Of a stretch of DNA of 49,665 bases, positions 3,342 through 10,479 are shown in pieces. Within the stretch, counting starts at the first letter, position 1, and every line of letters starts with the position of its first letter. Source of the DNA: an uncultured Lachnoclostridium sp. (GTDB lineage Bacteria > Bacillota > Clostridia > Lachnospirales > Lachnospiraceae); contig CALWDO010000018.1 of assembly GCA_944376715.1 (NCBI GenBank), positions 1 through 49,665 on the forward strand, read 5' to 3'. The notes below the pieces were generated by a model, which was not told where the DNA came from, ran no database searches, and saw nothing but the letters and a program-made list of their open reading frames with translations. A program made the position numbers and the translations under genes.

Positions 3342-3369
3342 AAAAAAGGAACGGCTGCCGCGCCGTTCC
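3342..3369 (-). terminator. intrinsic terminator after the regulator/IIB/M28-like operon
   Basis: A perfect 8-bp stem (GGAACGGC/GCCGTTCC) with a 6-base loop runs into a T6 tract on the minus strand. It ends the operon whose last gene stops at 3390. Confidence 0.88.
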
Positions 3370-3389
3370 CCTGTCTTTTTCTATCAACT

Positions 3390-4304
3390 TTATACCAGTT
3401 TCAAAATCCCATCGCGGATTTGTTCCATCCGCTCTATATTCAGATCCATATCTGCCGAAGTGCGGGCATGCCGCACATATATTTTTCCGTTTCTTTCTTC
3501 TCCCGCAGTAAGCAGATATCCATTCTGAAAACCTTCCAACAGAGTATTTTTATATTCTTCCTCAGTCAGAGGCCATATGCGTATCCGGCAGGGAAACGCC
3601 TTTGCCATTTCCTCGGCTTTCTTTTTATTCTGCTCCCTGCAAGCCAGAAAAAGCTCTCCGTCTCCGGCCACGCTGTCCAGAACCACTGCCTCCTGGCCCT
3701 TCAATCGTTCGGATATCTCATAGAAACCCTGGTTGCTCACAACGCCGTTATCCACGAAAAGGAAGCATCCGTTTTTGGCCTTTTCCGCGCATGAATACAG
3801 CACTGCTACTGCTCCGCTGTTTCGGTTCATATTGACTTTATTATCCGGTTTTTTCATCCATCGGAACACTAGCAGAACCGCAATGATATCCGCCGCCACA
3901 ATCAACGCGCGTACAGCCATGGTTCCGCCCCAGAACGTTCTGGTCAGATACACTGCCAGCACCGCTATGATCAGCGTCAGCAGAGAATACGCCGCTATGT
4001 TTTTCATTTCTCCCCGGAAATTCCGCTTGGAATCAAGCGGCATGTAACGATATCCCGGAACCAGCATCTTACTCCCGGTGTCATAGGCCGCAAGGAAGAT
4101 TCTCCGGCTCTTATTCAGATCTCCCGTCACCAGATGATGACTCTGACTGTGCTTATCCCCCGCTTCCATCATATCCATCCGGCATCCTGCCTCCTTCAGA
4201 CAGCTCACCAGCCGGTTCATGAAACGGTATTTATCGCGATTTGATCTTCTCCTGGAAAAGTGGATTCCCACCTCTTCAATCTTATCTCTCATATTATTCT
4301 CCAT
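3390..4304 (-). CDS. two-helix membrane protein resembling a degenerate M28 peptidase
   Basis: No named function can be given. The protein has about 304 residues: a soluble N-terminal part, two membrane helices at about 103-123 and 131-149, and a cytoplasmic-looking C-terminal half. The order of short motifs recalls zinc aminopeptidases of family M28, with the expected metal ligands replaced. FLAAYDTGS stands where M28 has GAHYDS, NRNSGAVAVLY where it has DNASGVAALLE, FVDNGVVSNQGF where it has an EE pair, and VVLDSVAGDG where it has LDMVG. The helix pair is inserted between the first and second motif. If the comparison is right this is a catalytically dead binding or sensing protein; it could also be unrelated. 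The ATG at 4304 overlaps the upstream stop as TGATG, so translation is coupled to the IIB-like gene. A GTG one codon earlier is possible. Confidence 0.6.
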   Translation of the reverse strand: MENNMRDKIEEVGIHFSRRRSNRDKYRFMNRLVSCLKEAGCRMDMMEAGDKHSQSHHLVTGDLNKSRRIFLAAYDTGSKMLVPGYRYMPLDSKRNFRGEMKNIAAYSLLTLIIAVLAVYLTRTFWGGTMAVRALIVAADIIAVLLVFRWMKKPDNKVNMNRNSGAVAVLYSCAEKAKNGCFLFVDNGVVSNQGFYEISERLKGQEAVVLDSVAGDGELFLACREQNKKKAEEMAKAFPCRIRIWPLTEEEYKNTLLEGFQNGYLLTAGEERNGKIYVRHARTSADMDLNIERMEQIRDGILKLV

Positions 4305-4780
4305 CACTTGCAGAAACTCCCATAGTCCTTTGCCTGAAACGGCGTAGTCTGAAAATAAAACCGGATATTCTGCTTCTGAATATACTCGATATCCGCCAGT
4401 TCTTCTTCCGAAAAATAATCTGCCAGATTCTTAGACGCCACCGAGAGAGTAGGATAGGGCATCTGGATCTCATCCACATGAAATCCTCTCTTCACGCTTT
4501 CCCGGACACTGGCCAGATCTTTAAAGATGACAAGCACTGTCGTCGTCCTGGGAGAATCATTCTGGTTCAGGAAATCCAGAAGACCTTCTTCTGTCAGGAT
4601 CTTTACCTTCATCGTTTTAGGAAGACATAACTGCATAACGCTGACAATAAAGGGATCATTGTCGTATTCCGACCCCACAACAGCCACATAATCTGCATTC
4701 AAAAAGGGGTCGCAGTTCAATGTAACGGTTGCGTGCAGCAGTCTCTTGTCCACACGCGCCAGCACAATCTTCATACTCAT
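4304..4780 (-). CDS. orphan, divergent mannose-family PTS IIB-like protein
   Basis: This protein has 158 residues and the size and fold pattern of PTS IIB of the mannose/fructose/sorbose family. It opens with KIVLARVDKRLLHATVTLN and ends with IRFYFQTTPFQAKDYGSF, matching the IIFFQTTPD-type end of true IIB proteins. The phospho-accepting histidine is kept (H16 in RLLHATV). The following residues, normally GQV, are changed, and the central region GxGPGRK-type motif of the complete IIB at 9072-9554 is absent. No IIC or IID is encoded with it. It is coupled to the CdaR-type regulator upstream (ATGA overlap, 4777-4780) and to the membrane protein downstream (TGATG). This suggests it is a phosphorylation-state sensor or regulatory domain rather than a transport subunit. 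That role is inference. Confidence 0.8.
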   Translation of the reverse strand: MSMKIVLARVDKRLLHATVTLNCDPFLNADYVAVVGSEYDNDPFIVSVMQLCLPKTMKVKILTEEGLLDFLNQNDSPRTTTVLVIFKDLASVRESVKRGFHVDEIQMPYPTLSVASKNLADYFSEEELADIEYIQKQNIRFYFQTTPFQAKDYGSFCK

Positions 4781-5859
4781 AACTCTTCACCCACCCGCCG
4801 TCTTTTCCGATACTCTTTCAGAGACGCAGAAATCAGGACAAATAAAAACCTGCCCTTAAAATCTCCTCTGATATCAATATGGAATGACTCTTCGTATTTT
4901 TTTAATTTATATACAAGAGTATTTTTATGCAGATACAGGCTTTCCGCAGTCTGGGAAATATTAAAATTGTTGGACAGAAGAGAATCCGCAATCTGAATCA
5001 GCTCGTCAATATCCGTGTCTTTGCCAAAGTCATGATAATAGTCAAAAACATCCCGCACATCGTTCAGTCTGATTTCCGACATGAAATAGTCATACAGAAA
5101 ATCCATAAACCATACGATCTTGTCCCGGCTTTCCTTTTCATTGTCCTTCAGCCAGAGACAATGGCGATAACTCTCCTTATAATTCCGGAGCTTTCTCTGA
5201 ACCGATCCGATCCAATAACCATCCCCTGTTACATCCAGGTCTTTCAACATTCGCAGGAACTTTCCAATATAGCTTTTCATCTGCTGATTTTCCAGATTCT
5301 CCGGAACCGCCTTGAAGATCAGCAGCGCATACCGGCTCAGCAGAGAACACAGGTTCCCTTCTCCTTCCGGCATCAGCTTCAGTTTCGCGATCTTACGGTT
5401 ATCAAATCCCTGTTCGTTTACAATATAAATCGCGACCCTTGACCGGGTCTGATCAAATCCCATCTCCTCGATCAGACCCAGAATGCGGTTCATATCAAAC
5501 GATTCATCATCCAACAGCAGTTTCACCAGCCTGTCGTCTTCCGTGATATTTTGTTTCAATGTGCTCTGTGTAATTTCATACGTGAGACGGATATTCAGAG
5601 AATCGCTGATCAGATTTCCCATCAGACTCAGGTTCTCGTCTTTGCCATTCAGCCACAGATATCCGTAGTCAAAATTTTTCGCTTTGACAGGATAATACAG
5701 GTTATATGGATCCGGACTGCTGATATCCCTGTGCCCGCCGATCAGCGCGGCGTCGCTGCAGTCCACCACATCTCCTTCTCCGTTCAGAAGCCCTATCGTA
5801 TAGTTTTTGTTTTCACGCACCACATTGATAAACTCTTTAAAAACGCTGTCAATAATCAT
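4777..5859 (-). CDS. CdaR/PucR-type transcriptional regulator
   Basis: A regulator of about 360 residues. The N-terminal segment (FKEFINVVRENKNYTIGLLN onward, about residues 5-120) resembles the sugar-diacid-recognition domain of CdaR. The C-terminus has the PucR-type helix-turn-helix, with NISQTAESLYLHKNTLVYKL followed by a conserved hydrophobic stretch. An upstream in-frame GTG at 5901 would give 374 residues, but it has no ribosome site and falls about 14 bases from the likely transcription start. The ATG at 5859 is preceded by AGAGGGG at a 4-base spacing and starts where the family homology starts. It heads the operon with the IIB-like and membrane genes. Its target may be the adjacent mannose-family PTS operon, which has no LevR-type activator beside it. 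The ligand is unknown; family members sense sugar acids. Confidence 0.82.
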   Translation of the reverse strand: MIIDSVFKEFINVVRENKNYTIGLLNGEGDVVDCSDAALIGGHRDISSPDPYNLYYPVKAKNFDYGYLWLNGKDENLSLMGNLISDSLNIRLTYEITQSTLKQNITEDDRLVKLLLDDESFDMNRILGLIEEMGFDQTRSRVAIYIVNEQGFDNRKIAKLKLMPEGEGNLCSLLSRYALLIFKAVPENLENQQMKSYIGKFLRMLKDLDVTGDGYWIGSVQRKLRNYKESYRHCLWLKDNEKESRDKIVWFMDFLYDYFMSEIRLNDVRDVFDYYHDFGKDTDIDELIQIADSLLSNNFNISQTAESLYLHKNTLVYKLKKYEESFHIDIRGDFKGRFLFVLISASLKEYRKRRRVGEEL

Positions 5860-5921: not shown

Positions 5922-5950
5922 ATTATAGCAGAATTCATTTTTTTTGTATA
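5922..5950 (-). promoter_or_regulatory. promoter of the CdaR-type regulator operon
   Basis: TATACA (5945-5950) and a perfect TATAAT (5922-5927), 17 bases apart, read on the minus strand. The predicted start near 5915 leaves a leader of about 55 bases before the ATG at 5859. This argues against the GTG at 5901 as the start codon. Confidence 0.7.
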
Positions 5951-6003: not shown

Positions 6004-6423
6004 TTACTCTTCAGTATCCAACCGTTTATTGGTGTGCACACCGCTTTCTTTCAGTGTTGCGATGCAGTTTTCTGCCAGCTCGTCCACATTTACTTCGCTG
6101 TCGTCCATATTCAGCGTACTTACATACAGATCGATCAGCATGGACAAGTTTACGCCGCTTACCACATCATGATGGTATTTCCGGCTGAGCGCCGTAAATA
6201 CGTTGCAGGGAGTTCCTCCAAACAGGTCGGTCAGCACGATCATGGGCTGCTCTGTATTGGCAAGTATCTCATCTGCCTGTTTCATAAAATCTTCGAATGA
6301 CATGGTCGGGAGCAGAGAAAGTACCTGTACATTCTCCATCTTTCCGGTAATCATCTCTGCAGATTTAACCAGCTCCTCACCAAATCTTCCATGGGTTGCG
6401 ATTACAATATTAAATTTTGCCAT
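6004..6423 (-). CDS. PTS mannose-family IIA component
   Basis: This 139-residue cytoplasmic IIA takes phosphate from HPr and passes it to IIB. It starts MAKFNIVIATHGRFGEEL, with H11 in the ATHG motif as the phospho-site, and contains the family signature LTDLFGGTPCN near residue 65. Length and motifs match stand-alone EIIA-Man. It is the last gene of the operon IIB-IIC-IID-dehydrogenase-IIA, 25 bases after the dehydrogenase stop. Only weak secondary structure follows it, and no clear poly-T terminator was seen before the regulator promoter. Confidence 0.95.
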   Translation of the reverse strand: MAKFNIVIATHGRFGEELVKSAEMITGKMENVQVLSLLPTMSFEDFMKQADEILANTEQPMIVLTDLFGGTPCNVFTALSRKYHHDVVSGVNLSMLIDLYVSTLNMDDSEVNVDELAENCIATLKESGVHTNKRLDTEE

Positions 6424-6448: not shown

Positions 6449-7381
6449 TTATTTGCCAAGCAGATGTTCCATCACGATCTGGGAAGACATCTCGCAGGTT
6501 CTTCTCTCAGATTCTTTCGAACGCGCTGCGGTATGAGGGGTCAGCAGGAAGTTGTCCAGAGCAACCAACGGGTCGTCTGCTTTCGGCGGTTCCTCGCTGT
6601 ATACATCAAAGCATGCGGAACGGATCTCATGATTTACCAACGCTTCATACAGGGCCTTTTCATTGACAATGCCGCCTCTGGCCGCGTTAATCAGGCACGC
6701 GTCTTTTTTCATTCTCTTTAATTCATTCGTAGAGATCATGTCTCTGGTGGAATCCAGCAGCGGCACATGCAGGGAAATAAAATCGCTGTTCTCGATGATT
6801 TCGTCCTGAGTTGCTTTCGTTACATGATACTGTTCTGCCACTTCATCCGGGATCTCAAATACATCGTACGCCAGTACTTTCATCCCCAGTCCGACTGCGA
6901 ACTCTGCCAGATGCTTGCCAATCTGTCCGAATCCGATGATTCCCAGCGTCTTGCCGCTGATCTCACGGCCGGTAGGTTTGTTCCATCCGTGATTCTTCAC
7001 ATCGCGGATACTGGTGTAAAGGTTTTTGGACTCTGCAAACATCAGCGCGATCACATGCTCAGCCACTGCTTTGGAGTTGGAACCCACGGTCCTTCCCACA
7101 AAGATTCCTCTTTCTTTTGCGTAATCCAGGTCAATATTGTCAGTACCTACACCAAATTTGCATACAACCTTCAGATTCGGGCACTGTTCCATCATAGCGC
7201 GGTCCATCACGTCTACGCCCACAATGATACCGTCCGCATCTTTAGCCAGCTCCAGGAACTGTTCCGGCGTATACTGTTTTCCGGTATTGTTATAATGTAC
7301 CGTAAGTCCCTTTGCTTCCATCTCTTTTACAATATCCACGCCATAATTGGCGAACCCTCTCGGGGTAATCAAAACTTTCAT
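6449..7381 (-). CDS. D-isomer-specific 2-hydroxyacid dehydrogenase (phosphoglycerate-dehydrogenase-like)
   Basis: A 310-residue NAD(P)-dependent dehydrogenase without an ACT domain. The Rossmann motif is GIIGFGQIG (147-155). The catalytic triad is present: R235 in NAARGG, E264 in SEEPP, and H283 in LTPHTA. The family reduces 2-keto acids or oxidises D-2-hydroxy acids. SerA-like sequences of this length with no regulatory domain often act on sugar acids such as 2-keto-gluconate, glyoxylate or hydroxypyruvate. Its position inside a PTS operon, between IID and IIA, suggests it processes the imported and phosphorylated compound rather than making serine. The start is supported by an ATAGGAGG ribosome site 8 bases upstream. 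The substrate is not known. Confidence 0.88.
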   Translation of the reverse strand: MKVLITPRGFANYGVDIVKEMEAKGLTVHYNNTGKQYTPEQFLELAKDADGIIVGVDVMDRAMMEQCPNLKVVCKFGVGTDNIDLDYAKERGIFVGRTVGSNSKAVAEHVIALMFAESKNLYTSIRDVKNHGWNKPTGREISGKTLGIIGFGQIGKHLAEFAVGLGMKVLAYDVFEIPDEVAEQYHVTKATQDEIIENSDFISLHVPLLDSTRDMISTNELKRMKKDACLINAARGGIVNEKALYEALVNHEIRSACFDVYSEEPPKADDPLVALDNFLLTPHTAARSKESERRTCEMSSQIVMEHLLGK

Positions 7382-7449
7382 CAGTCTATCCTCCTATATT
7401 CAGCGGGGCAAACCCGCCTTTGCAGGTTTGCCCCACGTACTCATTTCGA

Positions 7450-8301
7450 TTAGAGAATTCCAAAGAATGTCAATATAATCGCGATAACCATGGTATAAAC
7501 CATCAGTCTCAAATACTTCGGTCCGCGTTTGGTTATGTACAGATACATGCCCATAACTACACAGAACGGCAGAAGATTAGGAAGAATGCCATCCAAAGTA
7601 TCCTGAAGCGCGACGGTCGTATCGTTATTCACATACGTCAATGCCGTTGTCACCTTCACATACGATGCCGACAGACAGCCGATCATGAACAGACCTACGA
7701 TACTTGCGATGTCGATTACTTTCTTGATCATACCGGAGTGCAGGATCTCAAGCACTGCTTTTCTACCAAGCGAATAGCCTTTCTGGAACAGGAACCAGGA
7801 CCAGCCGTAGGACCATGCCAGATAAATGAGACCCGGCATGAATGCCGCCCAGACGCTTCCGTTCAGAGCCATCGGGACGAAGATTGCCAGAGGGATCGTA
7901 GCCACGATACCCTGGTCCACGCTGTCGCCGATACCTGCCAGAGGTCCCATAAGACCAAGTTTCAGAGACTGGATCACTTCCGGAGAGATATCCTCGCCGG
8001 CAGCACGCTGCTCCTCCAGGGAGATCGTGATACCATGGATGATGCTGCCCCAGTCACAGTTCGTATTGAACATAGAGTGATGACGTCTCATGGCATTTTT
8101 CAGCTCTTCCGGATCGTCTTTGTAAAGTTTTCTCAGGATCTTGTTCATGGAATAACCAAATGCAAGAGCCTGCATTCTGTCGAAACTTACAGGTACCTCA
8201 ACGGCGGTACACCATTTAAACCATGCTTTCAGCAGGTCCAGCTTTGTGATCACAGATTTCTTTTCCTCTGTCGCTGCCTGCGTCGTCGTTACTTCGCTCA
8301 T
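7450..8301 (-). CDS. PTS mannose-family IID component
   Basis: This 283-residue membrane subunit forms the sugar channel together with IIC. Family marks include the N-terminal soluble part (KLDLLKAWFKWCTAVEVPVS), ALAFGYSMNKILRKLY, LKLGLMGPLAGIGDSVDQG, and a hydrophobic C-terminus with several helices ending in AIILTFFGIL. GPLAGIGDS is a hallmark of EIID-Man. Its start codon overlaps the IIC stop by 4 bases (8298-8301), which couples translation of the two channel subunits. The substrate is undetermined; family substrates include mannose, sorbose, amino sugars and sugar acids. Confidence 0.95.
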   Translation of the reverse strand: MSEVTTTQAATEEKKSVITKLDLLKAWFKWCTAVEVPVSFDRMQALAFGYSMNKILRKLYKDDPEELKNAMRRHHSMFNTNCDWGSIIHGITISLEEQRAAGEDISPEVIQSLKLGLMGPLAGIGDSVDQGIVATIPLAIFVPMALNGSVWAAFMPGLIYLAWSYGWSWFLFQKGYSLGRKAVLEILHSGMIKKVIDIASIVGLFMIGCLSASYVKVTTALTYVNNDTTVALQDTLDGILPNLLPFCVVMGMYLYITKRGPKYLRLMVYTMVIAIILTFFGIL

Positions 8302-9050
8302 GCTCCTACCTCCTCATCAGTCTGTACAAAGAGTGATGCGATCATTGCCAGGCACATAGCCAGTACTGCGCCTGTCAGCATCGAGAATCCCAGGATGGAA
8401 TACAGGAAGAATCCAAGCACGAAGAACGGCAGATACTTCTGTTTTCCCATTACCACGATCGTCAGTGCAAAACCTAATGCCGGAAGCATATTTCCTGCAT
8501 TGGTCAGACCGTCCATCGCCCACTGCGGCACTGCGTTGATAAACGCCTGTACCACGTTATTTCCTAACCAGGTAGCGATGAACACCGGAGTGAAATAAAG
8601 AACTCCGTTGGTCAGCCACGGAAGGATGAAGCACATTTTGGATACTTTGTCGTACTCTCCTCTTTCAATGAACTGGTCAGCTTTCGTGTTGTAGAAAGAG
8701 TTGATCGTACGTCTTACATTGTTAATCAAAACGCCCAGCGCGCCGAAAGGCACTGCCAGCGCTACGGCTGCTCCTGCGTCCAGGTTGCCCATGATGGCCG
8801 CCGGCACTGCGATACAGGTTGCCAGACCCTGGTCGCTCGGGATATTTCCTCCTGCCTCGATACCGCCCATCCACATAAGCTGGATTGTTGCTCCGTAGAG
8901 CAGACCTGCCTGTACATCTCCAAATACCAAACCGATGAACACACCAAGCACTACCGGTTTACGGAATGCAAATGAGAAATAGTACTGAGCCCGCCCCATG
9001 GAGATCCAGTAGAGCAAGCCTACCAATGCGGCTTTTACTATCATATCCAT
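8298..9050 (-). CDS. PTS mannose-family IIC component
   Basis: A 250-residue polytopic permease subunit of the mannose-family PTS. It has about seven hydrophobic segments and the family motifs FGDVQAGLLYGATIQLMWMG and GGNIPSDQGLATCIAVPAA. IIC and IID together make the membrane channel. The gene starts 21 bases after the IIB stop and overlaps IID by 4 bases. Length is normal for EIIC-Man/Sor. Confidence 0.95.
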   Translation of the reverse strand: MDMIVKAALVGLLYWISMGRAQYYFSFAFRKPVVLGVFIGLVFGDVQAGLLYGATIQLMWMGGIEAGGNIPSDQGLATCIAVPAAIMGNLDAGAAVALAVPFGALGVLINNVRRTINSFYNTKADQFIERGEYDKVSKMCFILPWLTNGVLYFTPVFIATWLGNNVVQAFINAVPQWAMDGLTNAGNMLPALGFALTIVVMGKQKYLPFFVLGFFLYSILGFSMLTGAVLAMCLAMIASLFVQTDEEVGA

Positions 9051-9071: not shown

Positions 9072-9554
9072 TTAAAGTTTTGCTACCGCTTTATCCAATG
9101 TCATGGACGGATAATCCGGTGTGGTCTGGAAATAGATCTTGATACCGTCTTTTTCCAGATCCAGCAGCATATCCGCGTCTGCGCGGTCAAGCGTGATCGC
9201 ATTATTGACTGCTTTTCTGCCTGGTCCGCCTCCCAGTCCGCCGATCTGGACTTCTTCCAGCTTCAGCCCGGCTTTGCATGCATCGCTCAGTTCTTTCACG
9301 CTCTTGAACAGAACTAAGACACGGTTCGCCTCGAACGCGCCTTCCTGCTGCTGTTTTACCGCCGTATCAATGTCAAGGATTTTGATCTTTACTCCTTTTG
9401 GAGCTGCCATTTTGAACACGTCCTGCATGAACTCATCCTTGCTCAGAGCGGTGTCGATTGTTACGATTTCGTTGATCTGGCACTGGGTCAGCCATCTGGT
9501 GATCACCTGTCCGTGGATCAGACGGAAATCTACTCGAGTTAATACAATACTCAT
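9072..9554 (-). CDS. PTS mannose-family IIB component
   Basis: A 160-residue cytoplasmic IIB that transfers phosphate from IIA to the incoming sugar. It shows the complete active-site motif IVLTRVDFRLIHGQVITRW with phospho-His14, and the GGLGGGPGRK loop near residue 105. It ends YFQTTPDYPSMTLDKAVAKL. An AAGGAGG site lies 8 bases before the ATG. It is the first gene of the PTS operon. Compared with it, the orphan IIB-like protein at 4304-4780 has lost the glycine-rich loop. Confidence 0.95.
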   Translation of the reverse strand: MSIVLTRVDFRLIHGQVITRWLTQCQINEIVTIDTALSKDEFMQDVFKMAAPKGVKIKILDIDTAVKQQQEGAFEANRVLVLFKSVKELSDACKAGLKLEEVQIGGLGGGPGRKAVNNAITLDRADADMLLDLEKDGIKIYFQTTPDYPSMTLDKAVAKL

Positions 9555-9757
9555 ATCTCGTTCCTCCTTTTAATGATATCTTATCAAAAGGGAGTCCCCT
9601 TTCCTATGTTCGTCTGACCCAAAAAAGAGGGGCATTTTTATGTTTTTGTACAAATTATTTAACAGATATTTTATAATTAATTTCTGATTAGGTATTTTTT
9701 ATTTATATTTTAGGGTGTATTTTTGCTCGAGCCGTCATTTTGTTTTATATAACCCAT
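9555..9757 (-). promoter_or_regulatory. AT-rich leader of the PTS operon with alternative hairpins
   Basis: About 200 bases separate the IIB start from the terminator of the aldolase gene. No convincing sigma-A pair and no GG/GC-type sigma-54 site was found by eye, although many mannose-family PTS operons use sigma-54. Near the gene there is a perfect 6-bp hairpin, AAAGGG-GACT-CCCTTT (9587-9602). Its G-rich arm could also pair with CCCCT at 9628-9632, so two exclusive structures are possible. Confidence 0.35.
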
Positions 9758-9788
9758 AAAAAAAGCGGGCGGATTGTAACATCCGCCC
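9758..9788 (-). terminator. intrinsic terminator of the aldolase gene
   Basis: On the minus strand GGGCGGAT and ATCCGCCC (9767-9774 and 9781-9788) form a perfect 8-bp stem with a 6-base loop, followed by GC and T7. It isolates the aldolase transcript from the PTS operon. Confidence 0.92.
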
Positions 9789-9813
9789 ACAAGCCTTTTG
9801 TCTTTGTATAAAC

Positions 9814-10452
9814 TTATTTCTGTCTGTATGCCGCGATGATATCATGGATCTTCTTAGCATTGGCAGCGATATCTTCAGAGGTTCCTTTGGTCAGCAAGCC
9901 GCCGAATCCGCATACATCCGCACCGCTCTCCAGCCAGGTCTCCAGATTGTCCAGATTAATTCCGCCGCTTGCCATGATCGGCATGGTCGGGATCGGAGTC
10001 TTGAAGACTTTCGCCAGCTTCGGACCATAAAAATCAGAAATTGGAAATGCCTTGATGAAAGCCGCTCCCATGCTCAGAGCGTTCACTGCCTCTGTTACAC
10101 TTGTGCATCCCGGAGCATACGGGATCTGATAACGGTTGCACACCTTTGCCACGCCTTCATCATAGTTCGGAGCAATGATAAACTGAGCGCCGCAGAGAAC
10201 CGCATGTCTTGCAGTCTCGGCATCCAGTACCGTACCGGCTCCCACGATCAGGTCGTCGCCGTATTTTTCTCTCAGGCCTTTAATAATCTCGCCTGCATTG
10301 TTCAGCGTGAAGCTCATCTCCATTACAGGAACGCCGCCTTTGATGCAGCCTTCTGCAATCTCGCTGGCCCTCTCCAGGGTCTCTGCTCTTACTACTGCGA
10401 GAGCTCCCACTTCATACATCCTTCTCGTGATTTCCATTTTCTGCATTTTCAT
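9814..10452 (-). CDS. eda: 2-dehydro-3-deoxy-phosphogluconate (KDPG/KDGP-type) aldolase
   Basis: This class I aldolase cleaves 2-keto-3-deoxy-6-phosphogluconate, or a related keto-deoxy sugar acid phosphate, to pyruvate and glyceraldehyde 3-phosphate. Reading from the ATG at 10452 gives 212 residues. The catalytic Glu45 is in VMEMSFT, and the Schiff-base Lys134 in AFIKAFPIS. GAGTVLD, IIAPNYD, APGCTSVTEA and MASGGIN are the phosphate- and substrate-binding loops of the family. A longer GTG-started frame at 10461 begins inside the ribosome site (GAGGTGG), so the ATG is preferred. The gene has its own promoter and terminator. Its closeness to a mannose-family PTS and a CdaR-like regulator suggests sugar-acid breakdown, as in enteric glucosaminate (dga) operons where such an aldolase accompanies a mannose-family PTS. 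That link is inference. Confidence 0.9.
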   Translation of the reverse strand: MKMQKMEITRRMYEVGALAVVRAETLERASEIAEGCIKGGVPVMEMSFTLNNAGEIIKGLREKYGDDLIVGAGTVLDAETARHAVLCGAQFIIAPNYDEGVAKVCNRYQIPYAPGCTSVTEAVNALSMGAAFIKAFPISDFYGPKLAKVFKTPIPTMPIMASGGINLDNLETWLESGADVCGFGGLLTKGTSEDIAANAKKIHDIIAAYRQK

Positions 10453-10479
10453 TTCTACCACCTCAATACTATACTATTT

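Follow-up and report, generated by a model that had tools for sequence, protein, structure and literature searches.

A pseudo-M28 membrane protein, an orphan IIB-like protein and a CdaR-family regulator at a mannose-family phosphotransferase gene cluster in Lachnoclostridium

Here, we analyzed a stretch of 49,665 nucleotides from an uncultured Lachnoclostridium sp. (contig CALWDO010000018.1 of assembly GCA_944376715.1, which is 88% complete and 2.9 Mb in size), referred to below as the window. Between positions 3390 and 5859, it carries three overlapping minus-strand open reading frames, which we named REG, IIBx, and M28x and which lie beside genes of a mannose-family phosphotransferase system (PTS). 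The original prediction had described them as three coupled genes, and they proved to be real, with the same order in all three species that carry them. M28x belongs to a protein family that neither Pfam nor NCBIfam recognizes and that is linked to PTS genes even where REG and IIBx are missing. It is better read as a PTS accessory, and REG–IIBx as a local regulatory addition.

4777..5859, minus strand: REG, a relative of the CdaR/sugar-diacid regulators whose C-terminal helix-turn-helix (HTH) is of the PucR type and whose N-terminal sensor domain is shortened
4304..4780, minus strand: IIBx, an orphan mannose/sorbose-family IIB-like protein (PF03830, E 5.8e-21)
3390..4307, minus strand: M28x, a two-helix membrane protein related to M28 peptidases, with metal-site residues replaced

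REG comprises 360 amino acids and most likely starts at ATG 5859, which is preceded by AGAGGGG; IIBx has 158 residues, and M28x has 305 when read from GTG 4307. The end of REG at 4777 and the start of IIBx at 4780 form a 4-base ATGA overlap that is identical in the three species. The second overlap had been given as a single base (TGATG), which presupposes the ATG at 4304. That codon is missing in the third species, whereas the start at 4307 is kept (GTG, GTG, and ATG), giving a 4-base overlap with the end of IIBx at 4304.

The gene order Liv genes-KDPG-IIB-IIC-IID-HADH-IIA-REG-IIBx-M28x-amylase (KDPG, 2-keto-3-deoxy-6-phosphogluconate aldolase; HADH, 2-hydroxyacid dehydrogenase) recurs in two more genomes, that of Lachnoclostridium sp. 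An196 and a metagenome-assembled one from an uncultured Lachnoclostridium. The dN/dS ratios (NG86) were 0.03–0.05 for IIBx and 0.05–0.10 for M28x, with one M28x pair giving no ratio owing to saturated dS. IIBx and M28x are thus under strong purifying selection and are maintained genes, not decaying copies. The three genes could still be an ordinary, recently assembled accessory operon of no shared function, coupled by compact packing only, and their presence in a single genus agrees with this. We nevertheless consider it improbable: order and overlaps persist in all three species at a dS of at least 0.8 for IIBx and M28x, and the M28x family is independently tied to PTS genes, as described below.

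Neither Pfam nor NCBIfam yielded a match for M28x at an E value of up to 1. Its ancestry was visible from a 313-amino acid protein of another genus of the same bacterial family (genome G096, stretch L050), which matches Peptidase_M28 (PF04389) at E 1.4e-15 and to which M28x is 24% identical over 228 columns. A hidden Markov model of the pseudo-M28 family likewise recovered this Pfam-positive, two-helix M28 protein at 65.8 bits. Together with the replaced metal-site residues, this identity upholds the pseudo-M28 label of the original prediction. The 19.5-kb stretch around the true M28 gene of G096 contained no match to mannose-family PTS genes.

Searches with M28x alone reached little. Among 150 genomes of the window's family, one per genus, only its own genome and the true M28 of G096 were matched. 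A profile of the three M28x orthologues matched 3 of 291 genomes of the class: its own, G310, and, weakly, G389 (E 8e-4), whose stretch L099 showed no M28x match. The G310 match (E 6e-4), a 313-amino acid protein from another family of the class, opened the wider picture. Its gene is surrounded by those for KDPG aldolase, IIC, IID, IIB, IIA, 2-hydroxyacid dehydrogenase (36% identical to that of the window), a HAD phosphatase, 6-phosphogluconate dehydrogenase (6PGDH), and an RpiR regulator; five of these neighbors were confirmed by Pfam.

A more sensitive profile built from G310 and the three M28x sequences was then run over the 206 genomes of G310's family, and it found eight places in seven genomes. 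All eight adjoin mannose-family PTS genes, in three gene orders, and seven also show genes for 6PGDH, 2-hydroxyacid dehydrogenase, HAD, UxuA, or KDPG aldolase. Read on the gene strand, four loci (L115–L118) have the order IIC-IID-IIB-pseudo-M28-IIA followed by KDPG aldolase, with UxuA between IIA and the aldolase in L115 (by Pfam) and L117 (by eye). The order is HADH-HAD-pseudo-M28 in L114, HADH-HAD-pseudo-M28-6PGDH in L098, and IIB-IIA-pseudo-M28-6PGDH in L113, which shows IIA, a fragment of IID, and a IIB match split in two. L119 is a 6.7-kb contig with a broken copy and only IIA and RpiR in view. RpiR relatives occur in every locus except L114. None of the eight gave a REG match at E up to 0.001 or a second IIB, every IIBx match coinciding with an ordinary IIB. 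We also observed by inspection that the second pseudo-M28 copy of G583 (L119/L112), beside IIA and RpiR genes, is broken by one in-frame stop.

The association extends to Bacilli. Plasmid pVB3378_p4 of Enterococcus faecium carries gnd, genes for a 2-hydroxyacid dehydrogenase and an alcohol dehydrogenase, the series IIC-IID-IIB-pseudo-M28 position-IIA-uxuA-HAD, and an RpiR regulator. Three plasmid records matched along most of the query, and a fourth matched part of it. Like the window, the pVB3378_p4 cluster thus combines a mannose-family PTS with a pseudo-M28 position and sugar-acid enzymes; unlike the window, it has an RpiR regulator and one IIB. On inspection (L120/L121), the record has two hypothetical proteins that match pseudo-M28 annotated at this position, between its IIB and IIA genes, so that the gene looks interrupted there. 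As a control, nine other 20-kb PTS neighborhoods (L053–L056 and L100–L104) contained no pseudo-M28 gene, indicating that it is not part of every such locus. Mannose-family PTS enzymes II are usually counted complete with IIA, IIB, IIC, and IID. That an unrecognized membrane family adjoins such genes in two bacterial families, and also on a plasmid from Bacilli, suggests a PTS component that has been missed.

We aligned the 10 intact members, three from the window's genus and seven from G310's family (G310, G583, G738, G699, G701, G562, and G700). Invariant in all 10 are Asp-7, Arg-19, Lys-25, Phe-28, Glu-47, Gly-61, Lys-65, Tyr-74, Asp-75, Thr-76, Asn-158, Arg-161, Asn-162, Asp-185, Gly-187, Gly-193, Leu-209, and Asp-210. 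Compared with one true M28, all members have replaced the positions that we take to hold the metal ligands and the catalytic Glu of M28 peptidases: the metal-site His is Ala, Tyr, or Asn; the Asp is Arg-161; and the Glu-Glu pair is Gly-187 followed by Val or Cys. Asp-75, Asp-185, and Asp-210 are unchanged between the pseudo-M28 family and the true M28. Among eight members scanned, none matched PF04389 at E up to 1, and Pfam and NCBIfam offered no convincing family (the best E was 0.0015, and no weak family occurred in more than two members); the closest solved structure by sequence stood at E 0.14. A site that is rebuilt and yet conserved suggests a new binding role rather than decay.

The same residues could be read differently, with M28x as an active enzyme of new chemistry, for example on an imported sugar phosphate, instead of an accessory or sensor. 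The YDT, RN, and DxG motifs and Asp-210 are conserved in all 10 members at the former active site, and the relatives cluster with catabolic enzymes. What makes this reading unlikely to us is that the metal-site His, Asp, and Glu-Glu positions are all replaced, that the protein is predicted to be membrane-anchored, and that its gene separates IIB from IIA in four loci and adjoins IIA in two others.

The hydrophobic stretches of M28x (residues ~103–121 and 129–147, numbered from ATG 4304) fall between the first and second metal-site motifs and are flanked by basic residues on their outer sides. By the positive-inside rule for membrane protein topology, both soluble parts of M28x are therefore predicted to be cytoplasmic. 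The predicted structure had a mean pLDDT of 48 and supports little; the two structures that a Foldseek search with this low-confidence model matched at an E of 0.001 or less are TET3 aminopeptidases (TM ~0.25).

Turning to IIBx, the protein matches PTSIIB_sorb (PF03830) over its whole length at 75.8 bits, against a cut-off of 27, and this score is the lowest of 45 such matches in the 150 family genomes (75 bits; next, 99). We compared it with 35 other IIBs from the retrieved loci, after removal of exact duplicates and of any copy of the window's IIB. Six columns are fully invariant among these 35. IIBx retains four, Arg-9, Asp-11, Arg-13, and His-16, in all three species, and has lost the other two, with Ala-17 and Thr-18 in place of Gly-17 and Gln-18. 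Also replaced in all three species are Trp-23 (97% conserved; Cys in IIBx), Gly-108 (94%; Pro in IIBx), and Asp-37 (89%), and the glycine-rich loop is absent. Overall, IIBx keeps 7 of the 13 columns that are at least 85% conserved (54%), compared with 64–100% for the other IIBs. These data agree with the earlier claim that the protein keeps His-16 and has lost the Gly and Gln of the GQV motif together with the glycine-rich loop. The claim that no IIC or IID belongs to it also stands, as the assembly has one IID match for two IIB matches.

A tree of IIBs attaches IIBx to the group that contains the canonical IIB of the window (support 0.93), by a very long branch of 1.7 substitutions per site. 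IIBx likely arose by duplication of a IIB of that group, with long-branch attraction possible. That the phosphotransfer residues are kept while others are lost is the pattern one would expect of a phospho-sensor or relay.

Two other roles for IIBx were weighed against this. It might be a second transport IIB, through which the single IIC/IID would gain another specificity or a spare phosphate donor, with REG an ordinary pathway regulator coupled to it by chance. The family match and the four phosphotransfer residues fit such a role, as does the finding of only one IID, which IIBx would have to share. We judge it very unlikely, given the replacement of Gly-17, Gln-18, Trp-23, Asp-37, and Gly-108 in all three species, the fraction of conserved columns below the range of the other IIBs, the canonical IIB already encoded beside IIC, and the coupling of IIBx to a regulator rather than to IIC/IID. 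Alternatively, IIBx may no longer be phosphorylated and may act as an allosteric partner that titrates IIA and signals by protein contact alone. Several regulatory PTS proteins work through contact, and the loss of Gly-17 and Gln-18 right beside His-16 could impair phosphotransfer. That Arg-9, Asp-11, Arg-13, and His-16 are kept in all three species despite changed neighbors leads us to consider this unlikely as well and to prefer IIBx as a protein that would still take up phosphate.

Two loci read by eye carry comparable arrangements. At L054:7582-10246 (G104), a LevR-like regulator is followed by an orphan mannose-family IIB with an intact RxDxRLIHGQ motif, and an IIB/IIC/IID set lies ~8 kb away on the opposite strand. 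This pair may be regarded as a parallel to REG–IIBx, but with the full motif kept. L064 shows the end of a LevR-like regulator, IIA, IIB, and then an aminopeptidase-P-like gene, with no IIC or IID match in 3.4 kb.

REG is a CdaR-family regulator, as judged by its full-length profile homology. Like CdaR and the other sugar-diacid regulators (PF05651 plus PF13556), it has a PucR-type C-terminal HTH (PF13556, HTH_30; E 6.7e-11, 42 bits against a cut-off of 27) and aligns with its homologues over 336 columns (hhalign probability 99.9, E 4.6e-31). Unlike them, it has no match to Diacid_rec (PF05651) at E up to 10, a domain that is clear in the three distant homologues scanned (2e-20 to 2e-40) and in E. 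coli CdaR (2e-49). The CdaR-type label of the original prediction is therefore right, although Diacid_rec itself goes unrecognized. In alignment A5, where the distant homologues are 20–23% identical to REG, its sensor domain shows a 21-column gap, so that ~20 residues are missing. This loss makes an outside input more plausible, and the cut-back ligand pocket fits the uptake of a signal from a partner. REG had no PRD, EIIA, or AAA family among its matches at E up to 10.

The predicted structure of REG had a mean pLDDT of 48, with blocks of the first 100 residues at 57–85; for these residues, the model predicts a helix, two strands, two further strands, and a long helix. Foldseek gave no match for this model at E up to 0.001.

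We then asked how far the set of three genes reaches. Of the 17 genomes of the genus, three carry M28x, and the same three carry close REG orthologues (at least 90% identity). In the sample of 150 family genomes, IIBx had matches in nine, all at 19–31% identity except the window's own, and REG had matches in 12, the other 11 at 22–28% identity. A profile of IIBx run against 391 genomes of the class, where REG was not searched, matched five and found no second orthologue; its best match outside IIBx was the window's canonical IIB (51 bits, compared with 356). None of 13 stretches around distant REG homologues had a mannose-family PTS match. With the set of three found in its own genus only among the genomes sampled, the idea of a widespread three-gene system was rejected. 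Of the proposed synteny with mannose-family PTS operons, the part concerning the three genes (beside a PTS in 3/3 species) and the M28-like family (8/8 loci) held, but the distant REG homologues (0/13) did not follow. A by-eye reading of 12 of these 13 regulators, with L046 left out, showed some of them (L037–L048) adjoining glycerate kinase or TRAP transporter genes.

Upstream of REG on the same strand lie the genes for KDPG aldolase, IIB, IIC, IID, D-2-hydroxyacid dehydrogenase, and IIA, and the surroundings of the three genes contain the following features.

3345..3372, minus strand: terminator-like hairpin, 3' of M28x
5922..5950, minus strand: promoter-like site TATACA-17-TATAAT, with TG ahead of the second hexamer, upstream of REG
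6004..6423, minus strand: PTS IIA, mannose family (PF03610, E 5.2e-21)
6449..7381, minus strand: HADH, D-isomer-specific 2-hydroxyacid dehydrogenase (PF02826, E 1.6e-59)
7450..8301, minus strand: PTS IID (PF03613, E 1.2e-87), the sole IID match in the assembly
8298..9050, minus strand: PTS IIC (PF03609, E 5.1e-72)
9072..9554, minus strand: PTS IIB, canonical (PF03830, E 9.6e-44)
9641..9652, minus strand: conserved element TGTACAAAAACA, upstream of IIB and also present upstream of KDPG aldolase
9765..9790, minus strand: terminator-like hairpin between KDPG aldolase and IIB, conserved in 3/3 species
9814..10461, minus strand: KDPG/KHG aldolase (PF01081, E 2.9e-33)

The three genes had been assigned a promoter and a terminator of their own. 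Both signals are there: the promoter-like site upstream of REG is kept in the three species, and the hairpin (3372-3345) is retained in An196, the third species not being alignable at this point. In the window sequence, no terminator-like site was found between IIA and REG, so the three genes are probably also transcribed as the tail of the PTS operon. They probably form its distal end, and a fully separate transcription unit is doubtful.

The element TGTACAAAAACA is common to the regions upstream of IIB and KDPG aldolase, a similarity that none of 300 column shuffles attained at width 12. The 2.9-Mb assembly holds two exact copies, the other one at G000:C6:19456-19467; the copy upstream of KDPG aldolase in the window has two mismatches. 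The aldolase and PTS genes are likely under one common regulator, and REG might be that regulator. The region upstream of REG carries TGTATACAAA, for which pairwise tests were not significant. When the three upstream regions were scored together, none of 40 shuffles came up to their score at width 10 and one of 40 did so at width 12, but that score rests on the IIB–KDPG pair. An operator shared by REG, and hence autoregulation through TGTACAAAAACA, is not claimed, as the REG region does not join significantly.

What could such a locus do? To judge from the KDPG aldolase and the 2-hydroxyacid dehydrogenase, the mannose-family PTS cluster in the window probably serves a sugar acid, which may be 2-ketogluconate or another hexonate related to it. 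Such a hexonate would be imported and phosphorylated, reduced by HADH, presumably in a KguD-like role, and finally split by the aldolase. M28x would serve this PTS as a two-helix accessory in the membrane, facing the cytoplasm. With its metal site apparently rebuilt around the invariant Arg-Asn pair, it would probably either bind an anionic ligand, namely a sugar acid or a sugar phosphate, or dock soluble IIA/IIB at the membrane. IIBx, as a phosphorylatable but non-transporting copy of IIB, would take phosphate from IIA while the transporter idles, give it up when sugar flows, and report its phosphorylation state to REG, whose ligand domain is cut back. REG would then set the expression of its own genes and probably also of the PTS and aldolase genes. 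We hold this account, with M28x as an accessory and IIBx as a phospho-reporter to REG, to have somewhat less than an even chance of being right as a whole. It preserves part of the PTS-linked sensory unit of the original prediction: a link to a PTS near a likely sugar-acid cluster, phosphotransfer residues that are kept, and a regulator able to take a signal. The notion of one discrete, general system does not survive.

Several points weigh against this account. The set of three genes is seen in one genus only (3 of 17 genomes) and in no other sampled genome, and no deep co-evolution backs a REG–IIBx partnership. The pseudo-M28 family is independent of REG and IIBx and is itself seldom met: 7 of 206 genomes have it in G310's family, and 3 of 291 were matched in the class sample, counting the window's own and the weak G389. 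Both predicted structures, of REG and M28x, have a mean pLDDT of 48. The region upstream of REG shows no significant sharing of TGTACAAAAACA (REG–IIB, 130 of 300 shuffles; REG–KDPG, 44 of 300; width 12). Relatives of 6PGDH and UxuA were not found in the window, where Edd was not sought. Finally, the phosphorylation of IIBx and its contact with REG, like the substrate, ligand binding by M28x, and the targets of REG, are things that we infer rather than see. What the data show directly is the structure and conservation of the genes, the residues kept and lost, and the PTS linkage of the M28x family in other lineages.

The stronger novelty lies in the pseudo-M28 family, a likely component of PTSs, rather than in the three-gene unit. 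Combining the two parts gives a bolder statement, which is doubtful in its entirety: M28x would represent a new family of PTS subunits, a dead M28 with a membrane helical hairpin in its fold and an Arg-based anion site, serving sugar-acid mannose-family PTSs in Clostridia and Bacilli as a ligand sensor or assembly factor; in this genus, moreover, a decommissioned IIB would have replaced the ligand pocket of a CdaR-type regulator by a phospho-relay. Should the REG–IIBx pair work in this manner, it would show in simple form how a regulator with no detected PTS domain could be informed of the phosphorylation state of a PTS. Among the matches listed in a literature search, no title or abstract opening described this three-gene composition or an M28-like PTS protein.

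The nearest known counterpart that we considered is the D-glucosaminate PTS of Salmonella, to which a KDPG-type aldolase also belongs. It differs from the window in that its activator DgaR is a LevR-like σ54 activator with PTS regulation domains, whereas REG is CdaR-like with none found, and in that the window adds an orphan IIB and a pseudo-M28 protein. The two are alike in that each couples a dedicated regulator to a mannose-family PTS, which in the window likely serves a sugar acid as well; the Salmonella operon is dgaABCDEF, and its DgaR is under EII-dependent control (PMC4987338). The control of REG by IIBx proposed here is modeled on the EII control of LevR-like activators such as DgaR (PMC4987338) and would be an analogy to it.

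One further element of the cluster was noticed in the gap between IID and HADH (7382-7449). It contains a strong inverted repeat, GGGGCAAACC...GGTTTGCCCC, with no T-run after it. The repeat is conserved in all three species and is perhaps a transcript-stability or processing element.

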